A program made the position numbers and the translations under genes. DNA of 64,000 nt. Origin: Halorientalis sp. LT38. GTDB lineage: Archaea > Halobacteriota > Halobacteria > Halobacteriales > Haloarculaceae. Shown piece after piece: positions 2,586 through 27,704 of this stretch; position 1 is the stretch's first letter, and every line of letters starts with the position of its first letter. The DNA is taken from the NCBI RefSeq assembly GCF_037031225.1, contig NZ_JAYEZN010000001.1:1178001-1242000 (forward strand), read 5' to 3'. Below the pieces are notes generated by a model. The model saw only the letters and a program-made list of their open reading frames with translations, was not told the origin of the DNA and did not search any database.

Positions 2586-2712
2586 GATTTATGGTGAGGA
2601 TACCGTCTCATACAGCGGATGTATTGATATTGTACAGACTCCTGGTCTGTGCTCGGCCACCCTTTCCCGAAACTAGACGTGGGAACGACCCCTCGTCGGA
2701 GCCGTAACAGCG

Positions 2713-4398
2713 ATGCGCTCCCACCACGCACTGGTCGACGAGGCGACCGTCCGCCTCGGTTCGCTCCTCGTCGGTGACGACGGCTTCTTCGCCCGGAGTG
2801 TCGACTCCCCGCGCGTCGACGAGATGCTCCCCTCGGTCAGCGTTTCGGTGCCATCCCTGACCGAAGAGGAGTTACACGAACTCTCAGCGGAGACACCCGC
2901 TGGTACAGTCGATGTCGGCATCAAAGTGGCCGAGTGGGTCGGTACTGCTCATCCGACGGTCGTCTACCATCACGGGAACGACGAGCGACCGTTCTCGTCG
3001 AGTCGCTTCACTCCGAACACGTTCCGAGATATTCTGGTCGACCACGCAGACCAGTTCGAGGCGAACGTCATCGGACTCAGGGCTCCGTTTCACGACGGGA
3101 CGACGCAGGACTACGCGCGGAAGATGGGCGACCTGTCGAACTTCGTCGCGATGCTCGCGACGTCCGTCGCGACCGTCGACGGAATCGTCGCCCGGCAGAG
3201 CGGCGGTGGGCCGGTCGTCGTCTCGGGCGTGAGTCTCGGTGGCTGGGTCACGAACCTGCATCGCGCGTACGAGGGAACCGCGGACGTGTACGTCCCGATG
3301 CTCGCTGGGGCGGCGCTCGGGAAGCTGTTCACCAGGTCGGCCTACCGACGGCTGCTGGGGCGAGCCGGACGTGACGATCCCGACGCAATCGAGCGGACGT
3401 TGGATTTCGACGCGGACTTCCGACGTAGCGATGCGGGCAGGGTCTATCCACTGCTGGCGAGACACGACCGATACGTCGAGTCCGAGGTCCAGCGGTCCTC
3501 CTACGATGCGTCCGAGCTAGCGGTCGTCGATCGCGGGCACATCACGGCGACGCTGAACCCGACGCCGCTCCGCGAGCATCTTCACAGCGTGGTGCGAGGA
3601 CTCTCGACGTCGTCGGTCGATAGCCGTGGTCCAGTCGACGCGCCCGCTGTCGTCTTCGTCCACGGTGCAGGTATTTCGCGGAAGCTCTGGGTTCCACAGA
3701 TCGAATCGCTTTCGGACCAGTACAGGACCATCGCACCTGACCTTCCCGGACACGGAGATCGCATCGACGAACCGTTCCGATTCGAGGAGGCTGTCGAGAC
3801 CGTGGAAGCGGTTCTGGCCGACGTGGAGAGCGACTGCACTGTGCTCGTCGGCCACTCGCTCGGCGGGTATGTGGCGACCGAAGTAGCTGCTCGCCACCCA
3901 GACGACGTGGCAGGGCTGGTCCTCTCCGGGAGCAGTGCCGACTACCGCGGTTTGCTGGGACTCAGGACGACCGCGAGTAGCTATCTGTTTCGACTTGGGG
4001 CCAGGATCCCCGGCGGAAAGGGCCGATTCGAGCGAACGATGGCCCAGCGGCTCAGGTCACTCCCACTTTCGGATGCGGTGACCGACGAGATTCTGCAAAC
4101 GGGACTATCGCTAGACGCGTGGGGACAGTCCGGCATAGCACTCGTCGGCAGGGATTTCCCGTCGCGACTTTCGGCGTTCGGAGGGCCAATCTGTCTGGTC
4201 AACGGCGCGGACGATCGGATCAATCGCCCAGCAGCAATCGAGCGGTGCACGGAACTGCCGAACGCGACCCCAGTCGTCGTCCGTGATGCCGGTCATACCG
4301 TCAATCTCGAACGCCCAGCGGCCTACACCGACATCGTCCGCGAGTTCGTCAGAACAGTGTGTGACGTCGACGGCGGTTCGTTTCGTGAGGCGCTCTGA
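2713..4398 (+). CDS. Tandem two-domain alpha/beta hydrolase
   Basis: Two complete alpha/beta-hydrolase domains lie in one 561-residue chain. Domain 1 (about 70-297) has the oxyanion HG near 86-88, nucleophile elbow GVSLGG (Ser174), Asp252 and His276. Domain 2 (about 308-550) has VHGAG, elbow GHSLGG (Ser382), Asp500/501 and His528. Most family members have one domain of 250-300 residues. Both triads look intact, so this may be a bifunctional esterase or lipase, or one domain may be regulatory. No signal peptide is seen, so it is probably cytosolic. Substrate unknown. Confidence 0.8.
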   Translation: MRSHHALVDEATVRLGSLLVGDDGFFARSVDSPRVDEMLPSVSVSVPSLTEEELHELSAETPAGTVDVGIKVAEWVGTAHPTVVYHHGNDERPFSSSRFTPNTFRDILVDHADQFEANVIGLRAPFHDGTTQDYARKMGDLSNFVAMLATSVATVDGIVARQSGGGPVVVSGVSLGGWVTNLHRAYEGTADVYVPMLAGAALGKLFTRSAYRRLLGRAGRDDPDAIERTLDFDADFRRSDAGRVYPLLARHDRYVESEVQRSSYDASELAVVDRGHITATLNPTPLREHLHSVVRGLSTSSVDSRGPVDAPAVVFVHGAGISRKLWVPQIESLSDQYRTIAPDLPGHGDRIDEPFRFEEAVETVEAVLADVESDCTVLVGHSLGGYVATEVAARHPDDVAGLVLSGSSADYRGLLGLRTTASSYLFRLGARIPGGKGRFERTMAQRLRSLPLSDAVTDEILQTGLSLDAWGQSGIALVGRDFPSRLSAFGGPICLVNGADDRINRPAAIERCTELPNATPVVVRDAGHTVNLERPAAYTDIVREFVRTVCDVDGGSFREAL

Positions 4399-4567
4399 AG
4401 CGCCGCGACCGACCGAACTGTTCGACGCGCTCACGACCCGTGTCACGAGCCACGAGGTGTTCGACGACCGGCCGCTCACAGCGGACACACGGGAGCGACT
4501 GCGGGACGTCGCTGTCTCGGCTGTCGACGGGCGAGGGACTCTCTTCACGTTCGAGTGTAAGTGCTGA
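4386..4567 (+). pseudogene. Possible nitroreductase N-terminal remnant
   Basis: The frame overlapping the end of the hydrolase gene reads LFDALTTRVTSHEVFDDRPL and then a helix-like segment. This resembles the first residues of nitroreductase-family proteins (a DALTTR...FDDRPL pattern), but there is no plausible start codon and it stops after about 60 codons. It is either a decayed fragment or chance coding-like sequence. Confidence 0.25.
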
Positions 4568-4632
4568 GGGGATTCCCCGAAAGAGTGGTCTCAAAATGGC
4601 CCGGAGACTCGATACGCTATCGAGATGGTCCG

Positions 4633-6879
4633 TCACTCGCGGTACCCGAGCAACCGGAGGCCGTTCAGTGAGACCAGAACCGTCGATCCCTCGTGGCCGA
4701 CCACTGCGAGCGGGAGCGGGATGCCTCGGAGGAGGATCGTACCGACCATGAGCGCGATGGCACCGAACGCAATCGCGAGATTGACCAGCAGCGTCCGACG
4801 GGTCTTTCGCCCAAGTCCGAGGACGAATGGGATCTTGCTGAGGTCGTCGCCCATCAACACCACGTCGGCGGTTTCGAGCGCGACGTCGGTTCCTGCACCA
4901 CCCATTGCGACACCGAGGCTCGCCGTTGCCAGCGCCGGGGCATCGTTGACGCCGTCGCCGACCATCGCCACGTTCTCGTATCGGTCGACGAGATCCTCGA
5001 TAGTCGTCACTTTCTCCTCCGGGAGCAGTTCTGCCTGCACCTCGTCGATGCCGACCTCCGCGGCGATCCGCTGGGCGACGCGCTCGTTGTCGCCCGTGAG
5101 CATGACGATGTGCTCCACTCCGAGCGAGCGGATGTCGGCGATCATCTCGGCCGCGCCGGGACGGACTGTGTCGGTGAACGCGAGCCACCCCAGCACGGTA
5201 ACGGCGTCCCCTCGTTCTTCGGCGACGAGCACGCTCGTCTTGCCTTCCGATTCGAGCGTTCGGAGCCGCTCTAACCCGGGCTGGAGCCCATCGATCCGTG
5301 TGTCCCCAAGGACGGTGTCGAAGTAACTCCGGTTCCCGATGTGGATGGTCCGCGCCTCGACGTCCGCTCGGACGCCTTTCCCCGCGACCGAGTCGAACCC
5401 CCGTGCACTGGGCACCGTCAGGGAGCGGTCGTCTGCCGCTGTGACGGTCGCGCGAGCGAGGTGATGCTCGGAGCGGGCCTGCACCGCGGCCGCGACCGCG
5501 AGCAGATCGTCGTCCGTCAGTGTCCCGTCCCCTGCGCCATCCCGGACGAACACGTCGGTCAACTGCGTATCGCCCCGCGTGAGCGTCCCGGTCTTGTCGA
5601 ACGCCACGGCGTCGATGTTCGCCGCCGTCTCGACGTGTTCTCCGCCCTTGAACAGGACGCCCTGTCGGCCACCGGACGCGATCGCCGAGAGGACCGCCGC
5701 GGGCGTCGAGATGATGACCGCACACGGCGAGGCAGCGACCATGAGCGTCATCGCGCGGTAGAACGTGCCGGTGAATTCGCTGCCGAGCGCGAGCGGAATC
5801 GCGATCGCTGCGATCGTGAGCGCGAACACCCCGAGGACGTACGGTTGTTCGAGCCGGTCGATGAGTCGCTGTGTCGGGGCCTTCTCGCTCTGGGCACGCT
5901 CGACCATGTGGATGAGTCGGCTGATCGCCGATTCGTGGGCCTGCCTGGTTACCTCGATCTCGAGGCTCCCACTCTCGTTGATCGTCCCGCCGAAGACGTC
6001 GTCGCCGGGTTCTTTCGGCACGGGCACCGACTCGCCGGTGAGCGAGGCCTGATCGACCGTTCCCTCGCCGTCCCTGACGACGCCGTCGAGCGGGATCTTG
6101 TCGCCGGGACGGACGACGAACACGTCACCGACGGCGACCTCGTCGATTGGGACCGTCACTTCCGCACCGTCCCGCAGCACCTGCGCCTCGTCCGGTCGCA
6201 TCTCCACGAGGGACTTGATCGCCCGGCGCGAACGGCCGATGGCGTAATGCTGGAGCGTGTTCGAGAGCGAGAACAGGAAGAGGAGCATCGCTCCCTCGAA
6301 CGGCGCGCCGATCGACAGCGCCCCGAGTGCGGCGACGATCATCAGCAGGTCGATATCCACCGCGCGGTGGCGCAGTGTCTCGATTGCGCCTTTGAGACCG
6401 TACCAACCGCCGAAGACGTACGCGACGCCGTAGCCGGTCCAGAGCAATAGTGGCGGGCCATCGAGCCACCCGGTCACGAGGCCGGTCGCCATGCCGAGCA
6501 ATGTCAGGCCGACGAACAGGGCTTCTCGATTGAGTTCCGAACGGGTACTCGCGTCGGCGGTCCCCCTCTCGAGATCCTCCTGCAGTGAGACGCGCTGGTC
6601 GCGGACCGCTTCCCTGAGCGTGTCGTCGGACGTGACACCCTCGTCGTAGGAGATCCGAACACTTCCAGTTCGAAACGAGACGTCCACGTCGTGAACGCCA
6701 GAAATGCCCTGTAACTGTCGTTCGAGTGCGCGCGCTCCTGCCTCGCTACGACCGCCCCGGCGTTCGATATCGATCGTGCACGTCGAGATCGTGGCAGGGT
6801 CAGTGATGGCCACGTGTTCTACCTCGGGTTGGGACGGGTATCCCGAAGCGGGCACTCTGCCGGGTATTCGTTCGACCAT
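4633..6879 (-). CDS. P1B-4-type heavy-metal translocating ATPase
   Basis: A 748-residue P-type ATPase. It has an N-terminal HMA-like fold (about 30-95) whose CxxC metal site is missing (only Cys34). Then come the TGES actuator motif (281-284), the transmembrane SPC motif (384-386), phosphorylation site DKTGT (428-432), a GDGVNDAP hinge motif and HEGST (729-733) in the last helix. SPC with HEGG/ST defines subgroup P1B-4, whose members export divalent ions such as Co, Fe, Ni or Zn. It acts in the cytoplasmic membrane as an efflux pump. A universal stress gene follows upstream on the same strand. Confidence 0.9.
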   Translation of the reverse strand: MVERIPGRVPASGYPSQPEVEHVAITDPATISTCTIDIERRGGRSEAGARALERQLQGISGVHDVDVSFRTGSVRISYDEGVTSDDTLREAVRDQRVSLQEDLERGTADASTRSELNREALFVGLTLLGMATGLVTGWLDGPPLLLWTGYGVAYVFGGWYGLKGAIETLRHRAVDIDLLMIVAALGALSIGAPFEGAMLLFLFSLSNTLQHYAIGRSRRAIKSLVEMRPDEAQVLRDGAEVTVPIDEVAVGDVFVVRPGDKIPLDGVVRDGEGTVDQASLTGESVPVPKEPGDDVFGGTINESGSLEIEVTRQAHESAISRLIHMVERAQSEKAPTQRLIDRLEQPYVLGVFALTIAAIAIPLALGSEFTGTFYRAMTLMVAASPCAVIISTPAAVLSAIASGGRQGVLFKGGEHVETAANIDAVAFDKTGTLTRGDTQLTDVFVRDGAGDGTLTDDDLLAVAAAVQARSEHHLARATVTAADDRSLTVPSARGFDSVAGKGVRADVEARTIHIGNRSYFDTVLGDTRIDGLQPGLERLRTLESEGKTSVLVAEERGDAVTVLGWLAFTDTVRPGAAEMIADIRSLGVEHIVMLTGDNERVAQRIAAEVGIDEVQAELLPEEKVTTIEDLVDRYENVAMVGDGVNDAPALATASLGVAMGGAGTDVALETADVVLMGDDLSKIPFVLGLGRKTRRTLLVNLAIAFGAIALMVGTILLRGIPLPLAVVGHEGSTVLVSLNGLRLLGYRE

Positions 6880-23404: not shown

Positions 23405-24463
23405 TCAGAACGGGGCTTCCGTCTCCCCCGCGCCGGGCGAGTCGGCGCTCCCTTCGGCCTTGCCGATCACCACTCTGAACTCGCCGGGTGCTTTCTGCCG
23501 GTACGCCCAGCGGAACTCCGGACCGGCCTCGGCCTCGAACTGGTGGTACAGCGGCTTCGGATCGTGGTCGTTCACCAGCACGAATCCCTCACCCGTCGCC
23601 AGTTCGTCGTACGCGTCGAAGATCCGTTCGTGACGCTGGGCCGGCGGCAGGTCCCGGACGTCGAGTTCCTCGGTGATCTCGATTTCGTCGTCGCCCGCCG
23701 ACGACGGCGCCGCGTCCGCGTCGGTGCCGGACGATCCGTCATCCCCACCGGCGTCCTCGCCCTTCGTCACCTGTACGCGGCAGCGACCCGGTTCGGACTC
23801 GACGACCTCCCAGGTGAACGAGTCGCCGTAGCGCTGGCGGAACTCCTGGTGGAGCGGTCGCGGCTCGTGGGGGGCGATCAGTTCCATCGTCCCGCCCTCG
23901 GGGATCATCCCGTACCGGTGGTGGATCGTGGGGTGGCGTTCCGGCTTCGGGATGTCGCGGACGTCGTACCGCGTGACGACGTCCTCGTCCGCCGCGTCGG
24001 ACTCGCCGGTCTTGGCGACCTCGACGCGCCACTCGCTGCCCTGGCTCGCGTACTCCCAGTCGACCACGTCACCGTGCATCGACCGGAGTTCGTGATACAG
24101 CGGCTTCGGGTCGTGGTCGTTCACCAGCACGAACCCCTCGTCCGCTCCCAGTTCGTCGAAGATCCCGAGGAGCGCCTCGTGTCGCCGCTGGGGTTTGAGG
24201 TCGCGGACGTCGATGGTCCCGAGCGTGCCGTCGAGGGACTCGCCCACGGTCACCCGGAGTTCCCGCGGTTCCGCGTCGGGGTCGGCGTACTCCCAGTCCA
24301 GCGCGCGATCGCAGTCGATCTGATAGCGAACCAGGTGCGGGTCGACATCTCGATCGGCGACGATCTCGAACTCGTCGCCGGAGTCTGCGCGCTCCAGTCG
24401 ATCGAACAGGCGCTCGCGGCGTTCCGTCTCCGGCCAGTCGCGGACGTCGACGTCCGTGGTCAT
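23405..24463 (-). CDS. Four-domain DUF2249 protein
   Basis: A 352-residue protein made of four DUF2249 units at about 5-75, 84-152, 166-235 and 267-337, each opening with a DVRD(L/I/W)P-like turn. Units 2 and 4 keep DHDPKPLYH and unit 3 keeps HEPRPLHQ; unit 1 is degenerate (DVDPHLV). Acidic linkers join units 2-3 and 3-4. DUF2249 proteins are often near nitrogen-oxide or oxygen respiration genes and may bind metal or a redox partner. A small membrane gene lies upstream on the same strand. Confidence 0.85.
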   Translation of the reverse strand: MTTDVDVRDWPETERRERLFDRLERADSGDEFEIVADRDVDPHLVRYQIDCDRALDWEYADPDAEPRELRVTVGESLDGTLGTIDVRDLKPQRRHEALLGIFDELGADEGFVLVNDHDPKPLYHELRSMHGDVVDWEYASQGSEWRVEVAKTGESDAADEDVVTRYDVRDIPKPERHPTIHHRYGMIPEGGTMELIAPHEPRPLHQEFRQRYGDSFTWEVVESEPGRCRVQVTKGEDAGGDDGSSGTDADAAPSSAGDDEIEITEELDVRDLPPAQRHERIFDAYDELATGEGFVLVNDHDPKPLYHQFEAEAGPEFRWAYRQKAPGEFRVVIGKAEGSADSPGAGETEAPF

Positions 24464-25275: not shown

Positions 25276-26028
25276 TCAGTCGACGTCGAAGCTAAACTCG
25301 GGTTCCTCCGGAATGTCGAAGCTGAATTCGGGTTCTTCCTCGATGTCGAAGCTGAATTCGGGTTCCTCCGGAATGTCGAAGCTGAATTCGGGTTCTTCCT
25401 CGATGTCGAAGCTGAACTCGGGCTCCTCCTCGTCGATGTCGAAGTCGAACTCCGGCTCTTCTTCGTCTACGTCGAAATCGAATTCGGGTTCCTCGTCGTC
25501 CACGTCGAACTCGAACTTCCGTCGGTCGTCGTCGTGGTCGTCGTACTCGTCGTGATCGTCGTCTTTCCCGTCCTTCTCGCCGTCCCCCTTGCCATCCTCG
25601 TCGTCGGCGTGGTCCTCGCAGTCGACGCGGGCCACTCGGTCGCCGTCGTGGTAGACGCAGACGCCCTCGGGTGGGTGGTTCAGGTCCGAGACCTCGACGG
25701 AATACTCGATGGCGACGCGCTCGTGCGTGCAGTCCTCGGAGTCGGCGACGGTCTCGACGTACAGCGAGAGTTCGCCGTCCTCGCGGCCGTAGTCGGCCAG
25801 TTTCGCGGTGTGACAGGATTTCTCGCCGACGATCAGGCCGCGGACGGTCGTGGGCGTCCCGCAGTCGACGTCGACCTCTTCCTCGGCGTCGTCCGCGTCG
25901 GTTCGGCGGTCCTCGACCTCGAAGTCGACGTCGAACTCGCCGGCCAGTGCGGTCCCGGTCGCGCCGCCCAGTAGGCCGACGGACAGGGCACCCGCGCCCG
26001 CGTAGCGGAGCAGTGTTCTGCGTTGCAT
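25276..26028 (-). CDS. Secreted protein with acidic EEPEF tandem repeats
   Basis: A 250-residue protein. The Tat signal (MQRRTLLRYAGAG then a hydrophobic run to TALA) directs folded export. A globular part (about 32-145) holds at least five Cys, suggesting disulfides or metal. A Lys/Asp-rich linker leads to a tail of about seven units of 10-11 residues built on EEPEFSFDI, EEPEFDFDV and variants. The ATG at 26028 puts RR at residues 3-4. The tail could bind divalent cations or surface partners; function unknown. Confidence 0.8.
   Translation of the reverse strand: MQRRTLLRYAGAGALSVGLLGGATGTALAGEFDVDFEVEDRRTDADDAEEEVDVDCGTPTTVRGLIVGEKSCHTAKLADYGREDGELSLYVETVADSEDCTHERVAIEYSVEVSDLNHPPEGVCVYHDGDRVARVDCEDHADDEDGKGDGEKDGKDDDHDEYDDHDDDRRKFEFDVDDEEPEFDFDVDEEEPEFDFDIDEEEPEFSFDIEEEPEFSFDIPEEPEFSFDIEEEPEFSFDIPEEPEFSFDVD
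25286..25504 (+). repeat. Tandem 30- and 33-base repeats within the acidic-repeat gene
   Basis: Four units of 30 bases (25286-25405) alternate in a 60-base pattern, and three units of 33 bases follow (25406-25504). All begin TCGAA on the plus strand. They encode the EEPEF repeats. Near-identity of the 60-base pairs suggests recent slippage or gene conversion. Confidence 0.9.
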
Positions 26029-26299
26029 CGGTCCGAGGTTTCGTTCGACGATACCCCGTATGAAACCAGTTCTCACGGGCAAGCAAGCGGGTGCAAGACG
26101 GGCGGGAGACGCTGCTGACGGTAACCAAGCCGTCGCTACGCCGGGACTGGTCGGATGCGAACGGCCGGGAAACGGTCGCGAGTGCAGCCAACCGGGGCGA
26201 AGCGCGCGGACGGGTGTGGTCGGTCCCGGGCCATGTCGTCGCGAGCCGAAACCGATCGGGTGGCGACCGGCGCGCAGACCTCGGTGTGCGGATCGATCC

Positions 26300-27553
26300 T
26301 CAGGCTTCCAGCCACCAGCCGAGGAGTTTCTGGGCGTCCTCGCGGTCGCCCGGAGACCGTTTCTTGCTGTCGGCGTACTCCTTGTCGTCGAGGACGTTGC
26401 GTTCGAGGTTGTCGCGGGCGCCGCGGATGGCCGGGGCCGCGCCGTACTCCTCGCCCGTGCCGGCGAAGCGGCCCTTGTTCGTGAACAGGCGGATGGTCGC
26501 GCGGACGAGCGGCGTCCCGCGCTGGCGCTCGGTGTGGGCCTGGAGCACGACGTAGGCCTCGATGAGGTCCATCTCGGCGTACTTTTCGTCGATCTCCTCG
26601 ACGAGTTCGGCCACCTCCTCCCGGGACATTCCGGTGAGCAGGTCCACGCCGAAGATCTGGATCCGGAACGGCTCCGCCTCGGTCCAGGTGAGCGAGCGGA
26701 CCACGTCCGTCATGGTCAGGATGCCCACCGGCTGGTCGTCGCCGTCGACCACCACGAGCGAGGCGAACCCGTTCGAGAGCATCTCGTCGGCCGCCGCCTC
26801 GAGGGAGGTGCTCGGGGTGATCGTCGCGACGGGGACGTTCATCACGTCTCTCGCGGGCAGGTCCAGCAGGCGGTCCTCGTCGCCGGCGCGTTCGCCGAAG
26901 CCGCCGTGCGACTGGAACGTGTCGTTCGAGCCGCCACCGTCGTGGCCGTCGAACCCCTCGTGATCGCCGCCCTGTTGCTTGCTGGTCGAGCGGACGATGA
27001 AGCCCACCAGATCGGCGAGGCTCACCATCCCGAGAACCTCACGGCGGACGCCCCCGCCCGCGTCCGTCTCGTCGATCACGGGGACCCTGGAGATGCGGCG
27101 CTCGCGGACAGTGTTGATCACCTCGCCCATGGTCGTCTCCGGCCCGATCGAGATCAGATCGCGGGTGTAGACGTCGTCGACGTCGAGCGCGTCGAGGTTG
27201 GGCTGGACCGCTGCGACGAGGTTCTCGGCGGTGACGACGCCGCGGAAGGTTCCGTCCTCGAAGACCGGCAGGGTCGAGAGTTCGCTCTCGATCATCAGCC
27301 GCGCGGTCTCGCGGACGTCTTCGGTGGGCTCGATCCGCGGCGGATCGTCGCGCACCACGTTCGCGACGCGCTCGTCCGGGTCGTGTTTCGACGCGAGGAG
27401 CTGGCGCCGGTTCACGACGCCGACGAACCCGTCGTCGTCGGTGACCACGACGACCCGCGCCGCCCGGTCTGTGAACGCGCTGACGAGCTTGGCGACCCGG
27501 GTCGACGCGTCGATGGACGGAAACTCCGTCGTGAGAATGTCGGTGCAGTCCAT
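26300..27553 (-). CDS. Four-CBS-domain protein with HPF-like C-terminal domain
   Basis: A 417-residue protein. CBS motifs occur at about 1-55, 62-118, 124-187 and 233-290, with a Gly/Asp/His-rich loop at 190-230. Residues 296-390 (RIQIFGVDL, VRATIRLFTNKGRFAGTGEE, IRGARDNLERNV) follow the beta-alpha-beta-beta-beta-alpha order of ribosome hibernation factor HPF/RaiA. CBS pairs bind adenine nucleotides, so this could couple energy state to ribosome inactivation. The HPF match is by pattern only. Confidence 0.8.
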   Translation of the reverse strand: MDCTDILTTEFPSIDASTRVAKLVSAFTDRAARVVVVTDDDGFVGVVNRRQLLASKHDPDERVANVVRDDPPRIEPTEDVRETARLMIESELSTLPVFEDGTFRGVVTAENLVAAVQPNLDALDVDDVYTRDLISIGPETTMGEVINTVRERRISRVPVIDETDAGGGVRREVLGMVSLADLVGFIVRSTSKQQGGDHEGFDGHDGGGSNDTFQSHGGFGERAGDEDRLLDLPARDVMNVPVATITPSTSLEAAADEMLSNGFASLVVVDGDDQPVGILTMTDVVRSLTWTEAEPFRIQIFGVDLLTGMSREEVAELVEEIDEKYAEMDLIEAYVVLQAHTERQRGTPLVRATIRLFTNKGRFAGTGEEYGAAPAIRGARDNLERNVLDDKEYADSKKRSPGDREDAQKLLGWWLEA

Positions 27554-27679: not shown

Positions 27680-27704
27680 AACGACCGGTGTCGCGCCGGT
27701 CGTT
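27680..27704. repeat. Nine-base-pair inverted repeat upstream of the CBS gene
   Basis: AACGACCGG and CCGGTCGTT are perfect arms around a seven-base loop. It lies between two divergent genes and directly before an A+T-rich tract (ATAATTATTATA), so an operator is more likely than a terminator. The divergent interval of about 300 bases holds no gene. Confidence 0.5.

Follow-up and report, generated by a model that had tools for sequence, protein, structure and literature searches.

In the 64,000-nucleotide stretch of Halorientalis sp. LT38 DNA analysed here (the window), the gene at 26300-27553 is best explained as encoding a ribosome hibernation factor of the HibA family that falls in an accessory clade, set apart from core HibA, and that probably has a hold of its own on the 50S subunit via a long loop (rough probability of this reading, 0.7). 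The comparisons and models described below establish the family membership of the protein, the fold of its tail, its clade, the length of its loop, and the association of the clade with plasmids and stress genes. The gene is the second HibA gene of its genome and its loop is enlarged, both of which go beyond the earlier note on this DNA. The features of the gene are as follows.

26300..27553, minus strand: HibA gene assigned to the accessory clade, 417 aa, ATG start
26678..27553, minus strand: CBS module, residues 1-292, four tandem CBS domains (Pfam and structural matches)
26864..26989, minus strand: enlarged CBS3-CBS4 loop, residues 189-230, 42 aa long where the aligned PTC-loop segment of P. 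abyssi has 18 aa
27008..27031, minus strand: CBS3 motif GMVSLADL, residues 175-182, Asp181 invariant in 43/43
26702..26725, minus strand: CBS4 motif GILTMTDV, residues 277-284, Asp283 invariant in 43/43
26369..26662, minus strand: predicted HPF/RaiA-fold tail, residues 298-395 (AlphaFold2 models, fold matches, profile matches)
26393..26410, minus strand: NLERNV, residues 382-387, end of the last HPF helix (helix 372-395 in the model)
26303..26368, minus strand: C-terminal extension, residues 396-417, ending in GWWLEA (W413 invariance; mostly low pLDDT)

The earlier note had the coordinates of the open reading frame (minus strand, 417 aa) exactly right, and the four CBS motifs that it had pointed out correspond to four stretches in Pfam (E 1.7e-41). 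By sequence, the closest solved chain is 9l96_a (E 5.7e-96, residues 1-416 of the window protein); P. abyssi HibA (Q9UYR4; chain 9sr9_H) is matched in two stretches (E 2.3e-35, query residues 4-197 and 218-392), with about 29% identity over the aligned residues. The window protein shares with HibA the four N-terminal CBS domains, the C-terminal HPF/RaiA-fold domain, homology to the P. abyssi protein along most of its length, and an occupied PTC-loop position between CBS3 and CBS4, which is enlarged to 42 aa versus 18 aa in P. abyssi. The placement of the gene in the HibA family is thus firm, and a role of its product in ribosome hibernation, predicted from this homology, is well supported. The fusion of CBS domains with an HPF tail, as such, is already known, being that of HibA.

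HibA, an archaeal family of hibernation factors, was published in April 2026, and archaeal factors of this CBS-HPF type have been described only recently. According to the main text of that report (PMC13324472), the tail of P. abyssi HibA occupies the mRNA:tRNA channel of the 30S subunit, the CBS module takes up three positions on the 50S subunit, in one of which loop residues 190-207 encircle A2834 of the 23S rRNA in the peptidyl-transferase centre, and deletion of hibA in T. barophilus leads to slower recovery and smaller 70S pools. By analogy with this homologue, from which the ribosome sites, nucleotide binding and protection are all taken here, the accessory HibA would keep idle ribosomes inactive and protected. 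A further protein of this architecture, HVO_2384 of Haloferax volcanii, likewise combines tandem CBS domains with a C-terminal hibernation-factor domain; its mass of 42.5 kDa, rather than its sequence, suggests that it belongs to the core clade, and the text that describes it only proposes a ribosome role (PMC12607858).

The C-terminal tail is predicted to have the HPF/YfiA/RaiA fold. The Pfam match of residues 311-392 to Ribosomal_S30AE (PF02482) scores 14.4 bits and is sub-threshold (cut-off 23.7), so that by Pfam alone the tail is unproven and, by the same cut-off, falls short of bacterial HPF/RaiA proper; the core HibA copy of the same genome scores 19.0-21.3 bits, and Pfam and NCBIfam by themselves do not settle the identity of the tail. 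An AlphaFold2 model of the whole protein (46 sequences in the alignment, mean pLDDT 76.7, pTM 0.59) arranges residues 298-395 in the HPF order of strand, helix, three strands and helix, which bears out the order read earlier from the letters, as does the position of NLERNV within the last helix of the model. Because CBS modules crowded the fold searches with the whole protein, with 9l96 and 9sr9 absent from both lists, the tail was modelled alone (128 aa, 41 sequences, mean pLDDT 78.1, pTM 0.70), with the same succession of elements. Judging by chain and entry titles, the best 25 Foldseek rows for this model are all of the HPF/YfiA/RaiA type, and the best VIA-align rows are the HPF of Vibrio cholerae and E. 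coli (Z 11.2, with 88 residues at an rmsd of 2.4 A); the comparison with HPF that the earlier note had proposed thus yields an HPF fold rather than an unrelated one. A sequence profile of the tail matches 9l96_a (2e-49) and 9sr9_H (3.5e-15), followed by eight weak matches (E 0.13-1.2), six of which are bacterial HPF chains. The window tail accordingly has the fold of bacterial HPF/RaiA (YfiA; Z up to 11.2), with sub-threshold sequence similarity, but the bacterial proteins lack the CBS module. E384 and R385 of the NLERNV helix and W413 in the C-terminal extension are invariant in an 11-sequence alignment, and the C-terminal end of the tail differs between the window copy and the core HibA of the same genome.

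The genome (3.58 Mb, two contigs) carries two HibA genes, the second of which (contig C1, 2912191-2913282) encodes a 380-aa protein that is 41% identical to the window copy. Among the 39 genomes searched, including this one, 37 have a family match; the core form was assigned to 33 and the accessory form to 16, some of the latter with two or three accessory copies, by a reading of single-stretch versus split matches that was checked in the tree for an accessory copy of the 16 genomes and for 15 core proteins, the remainder being assigned by match shape only. Within the genus (eight genomes), an accessory copy was found only in this genome and in G003 and G004, whose best copies share 42% and 49% identity with the window copy; the core proteins of this genome and of G007 are 92% identical. 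One genome (G015, contig C1) has three full-length accessory copies (at 3343726, 3598672 and 3707756) in addition to a core gene, and in Natronomonas sp. LN261 (L115, about 2684 to 5500) a core-type HibA gene adjoins an accessory one on a single contig.

In a tree of 43 rows, the 15 core proteins form one group (support 100/99), and 27 rows, including the window copy and 9l96_a, form the accessory group with moderate support (91/65). The window copy falls in a four-row subclade (100/99) with two copies from Halobaculum plasmids and one from the genome G024. Judged from these sequences, it is a member of the accessory clade and is distinct from the near-universal core HibA. A literature search found no description of the accessory clade; the main text of PMC13324472 contains 'halo' once and 'paralog' once, and haloarchaeal paralogues may be treated in its supplements, which lay outside the search. 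In the literature searched, this long-loop, often plasmid-borne clade is thus a variant for which we found no earlier description.

The PTC-loop segment sets the two groups apart: in the alignment, it has 18 aa in P. abyssi, 18-19 aa in all 15 core proteins and 30-43 aa in all 27 accessory rows, and across 46 aligned accessory proteins the range is 29-43 aa. The loop of the window protein is Gly-rich (QGG ... GGFGERAG), and throughout the clade the insert is bracketed by QGG and GGFGxRxG-like residues. For the course of the long loop and the reason for its length, we infer that the doubled, Gly-rich segment would provide the CBS module with a hold of its own on the 50S subunit. The principal alternative, which we regard as a real but lesser possibility, is that the protein is an ordinary HibA duplicate that has the same sites and action as the core form and is retained solely for dosage or to be expressed under other stresses, with the long loop as a neutral, disordered halophile insertion. 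This alternative accounts for the CBS3 and CBS4 aspartates and the tail residues that core and accessory forms have in common, for the predicted disorder of the loop (pLDDT under 50 at residues 191-224 of the window protein) and for its variable length within the clade, from 29 to 43 aa. However, G195, G196, G218, G220, R222 and G224, which bracket the loop, are invariant or nearly so in the 46 sequences, and the loop lengths fall into two groups: among 125 rows, duplicates included, 106 are long and 19 short, and none is from 23 to 26. The charge of the loop bears on the preferred reading: that of the window protein is acidic (three K+R and nine D+E, compared with seven and five in 9l96_a), which is unexpected for a simple rRNA-binding loop and weakens the idea that the loop binds the 50S subunit.

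A further argument against a mere duplicate is that an accessory member of the family, but no core one, was found in deposited 50S entries. The tree row of 9l96_a matches, with 100% identity across the 404 compared residues, a protein encoded on pHME505 of Haloferax mediterranei (WP_004060604.1; our locus L046), which resembles the window protein in its accessory clade, its long QGG...GGFG loop and a full-length match at 45% identity, and differs from it in belonging to another subclade and in its less acidic loop. A search with uL2 returned eight large-subunit entries in one set, including 9l96, 9l98, 9l9c and 9l9v, all four with the CBS protein; none of the eight was listed in searches with uS12 and uS7, an absence that could reflect partial models. 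aIF6, which blocks the joining of 50S and 30S subunits, as stated for P. abyssi in PMC13324472, is present in 9l9c, 9l9j and 9l9v, and two of these three contain the CBS protein as well; given the presence of aIF6 beside it, the entries with the 9l96-type CBS protein look like free 50S complexes. A literature search found no paper on the 9l96-series entries.

The free-50S-like entries are a feature of the H. mediterranei protein itself, and since the main text of PMC13324472 reports that no 50S:HibA complex was observed in P. abyssi, capping of the 50S subunit does not appear to be family-wide. A specialization of the accessory clade for the 50S subunit can nevertheless be proposed, and its members could also cap free large subunits, as the H. 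mediterranei relative appears to do. Carried further, this would amount to a second, horizontally moving hibernation system of haloarchaea, in which HibA paralogues from plasmids and stress islands use their doubled PTC loop to plug free 50S subunits, whether or not aIF6 is present, apart from the core HibA that caps 70S ribosomes; we put this forward as a tentative and somewhat doubtful extension. If it is true, large subunits are stored separately, and the storage of ribosomes as such becomes a transferable, accessory trait.

The CBS module also invites a reading in which binding of AMP or ATP switches the association of the protein with the ribosome. In a structural search, residues 1-292 resemble MJ1225, the SriA/SriB and SriD entries, Dri and AMPK gamma (Z about 20-25). 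Dri (Pyrobaculum calidifontis) and SriA-SriD (Methanosarcina acetivorans) are themselves ribosome-bound CBS modules; Dri consists of two fused CBS modules without an HPF tail, whereas the window protein has one module and an HPF-fold tail, and the matched Sri chains, at 270-339 aa, are about the size of a CBS module, which suggests that they have no HPF tail. The (S/T)xxD motif of CBS domains binds nucleotides. In the alignment, the aspartates of this motif in CBS3 and CBS4 are invariant in 43/43 proteins and those of CBS1 and CBS2 are mostly absent, a pattern that fits a single CBS3-CBS4 adenylate site, as in P. abyssi. There, the AMP/ATP-binding pair is CBS3 and CBS4, and the isolated CBS module binds ADP, ATP and, with the highest affinity (Kd 12 uM), AMP (PMC13324472). 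Adenylate sensing by CBS3 and CBS4 of the clade is therefore possible, given the invariance of the corresponding aspartates. Nevertheless, a switch of this kind is unlikely, considering that, in the main text of the same report, native P. abyssi HibA-ribosome complexes are without nucleotide, AMP or ATP leave the ribosome-bound states largely unchanged, and the authors leave open regulation via a sequestering partner. The earlier proposal of an energy-gated hibernation factor therefore holds for hibernation, by HibA homology and the fold of the tail, but finds no support for the gating, since AMP and ATP had little effect on the ribosome-bound states in P. abyssi. That the protein is a CBS-module regulator acting off the ribosome, with the tail as a relic, would accord with the many roles of CBS modules and with HhpR, described as a transcription regulator that is a stand-alone CBS module, but is highly improbable given the conservation of the tail in profile and fold and the presence of a member of the same clade in deposited ribosomal-subunit entries.

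The accessory HibA clade is also linked to plasmids and stress genes. In tblastn searches, the window protein as query matched family members on 41 plasmid records, none of which reached 60% identity, and the core protein of the same genome found 41 records, 40 of them under 60% and one (Natronorubrum bangense) at 60-80%, so that about 40 of the 41 are of the accessory type. All ten of the 41 records that were placed in the tree belong to the accessory clade. The phage records searched contained no HibA-family gene. The accessory loci were gathered by an alignment-based search of genome contigs, a single-protein query having matched nothing. Universal stress protein genes were found at 37 of 80 accessory loci, compared with one of 20 arbitrary 20-kb stretches and one of 20 core loci, where the 80 are the best 80 of 156 and related, so that the counts are not independent, and the queries were drawn from accessory neighbourhoods, which favours the accessory set. 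Such a clade, with its remodelled loop and its frequent location on plasmids and close to stress genes, would show that hibernation can form part of the accessory genetic cargo and may be specialised by subunit. This scheme is open to experiment: for one member, coordinates with the 50S subunit are already deposited, and genetic work is feasible in Haloferax species.

The window copy itself is located on the large contig of its genome, with the nearest universal stress protein gene about 19 kb away. No conserved gene order was found around it: of ten neighbouring open reading frames, only a cation exchanger was matched, in 4 of 92 loci (L042-L133, of which L052 and L053 are ribosomal-gene loci). 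Predicted RNA folding upstream of the gene is indistinguishable from that of shuffled sequences (z -0.13). An inverted repeat lies at 27680-27704, some 130 bp upstream of the ATG of the HibA gene; its 9-bp arms (AACGACCGG / CCGGTCGTT) are separated by a 7-base loop, and it adjoins an AT-rich stretch and might be a terminator or a regulator site. Elsewhere in the window, the minus-strand open reading frame at 25276-26082 (268 aa) ends in C-terminal tandem acidic repeats (EEPEFSFDI and similar) and has no Pfam match, and four DUF2249 stretches are encoded at 23405-24463, also on the minus strand (Pfam E 2.9e-86). Near accessory HibA genes on plasmids, we observed copies of the ribosomal protein genes P1 and S17e (L050, 7413-7736, and L044, 489-692). 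Both Halobaculum plasmid copies are followed downstream by genes for another CBS-domain protein, roughly 300 aa long, and for a HalOD1 protein (L042, 9151-10059; L043, 11015-12010).
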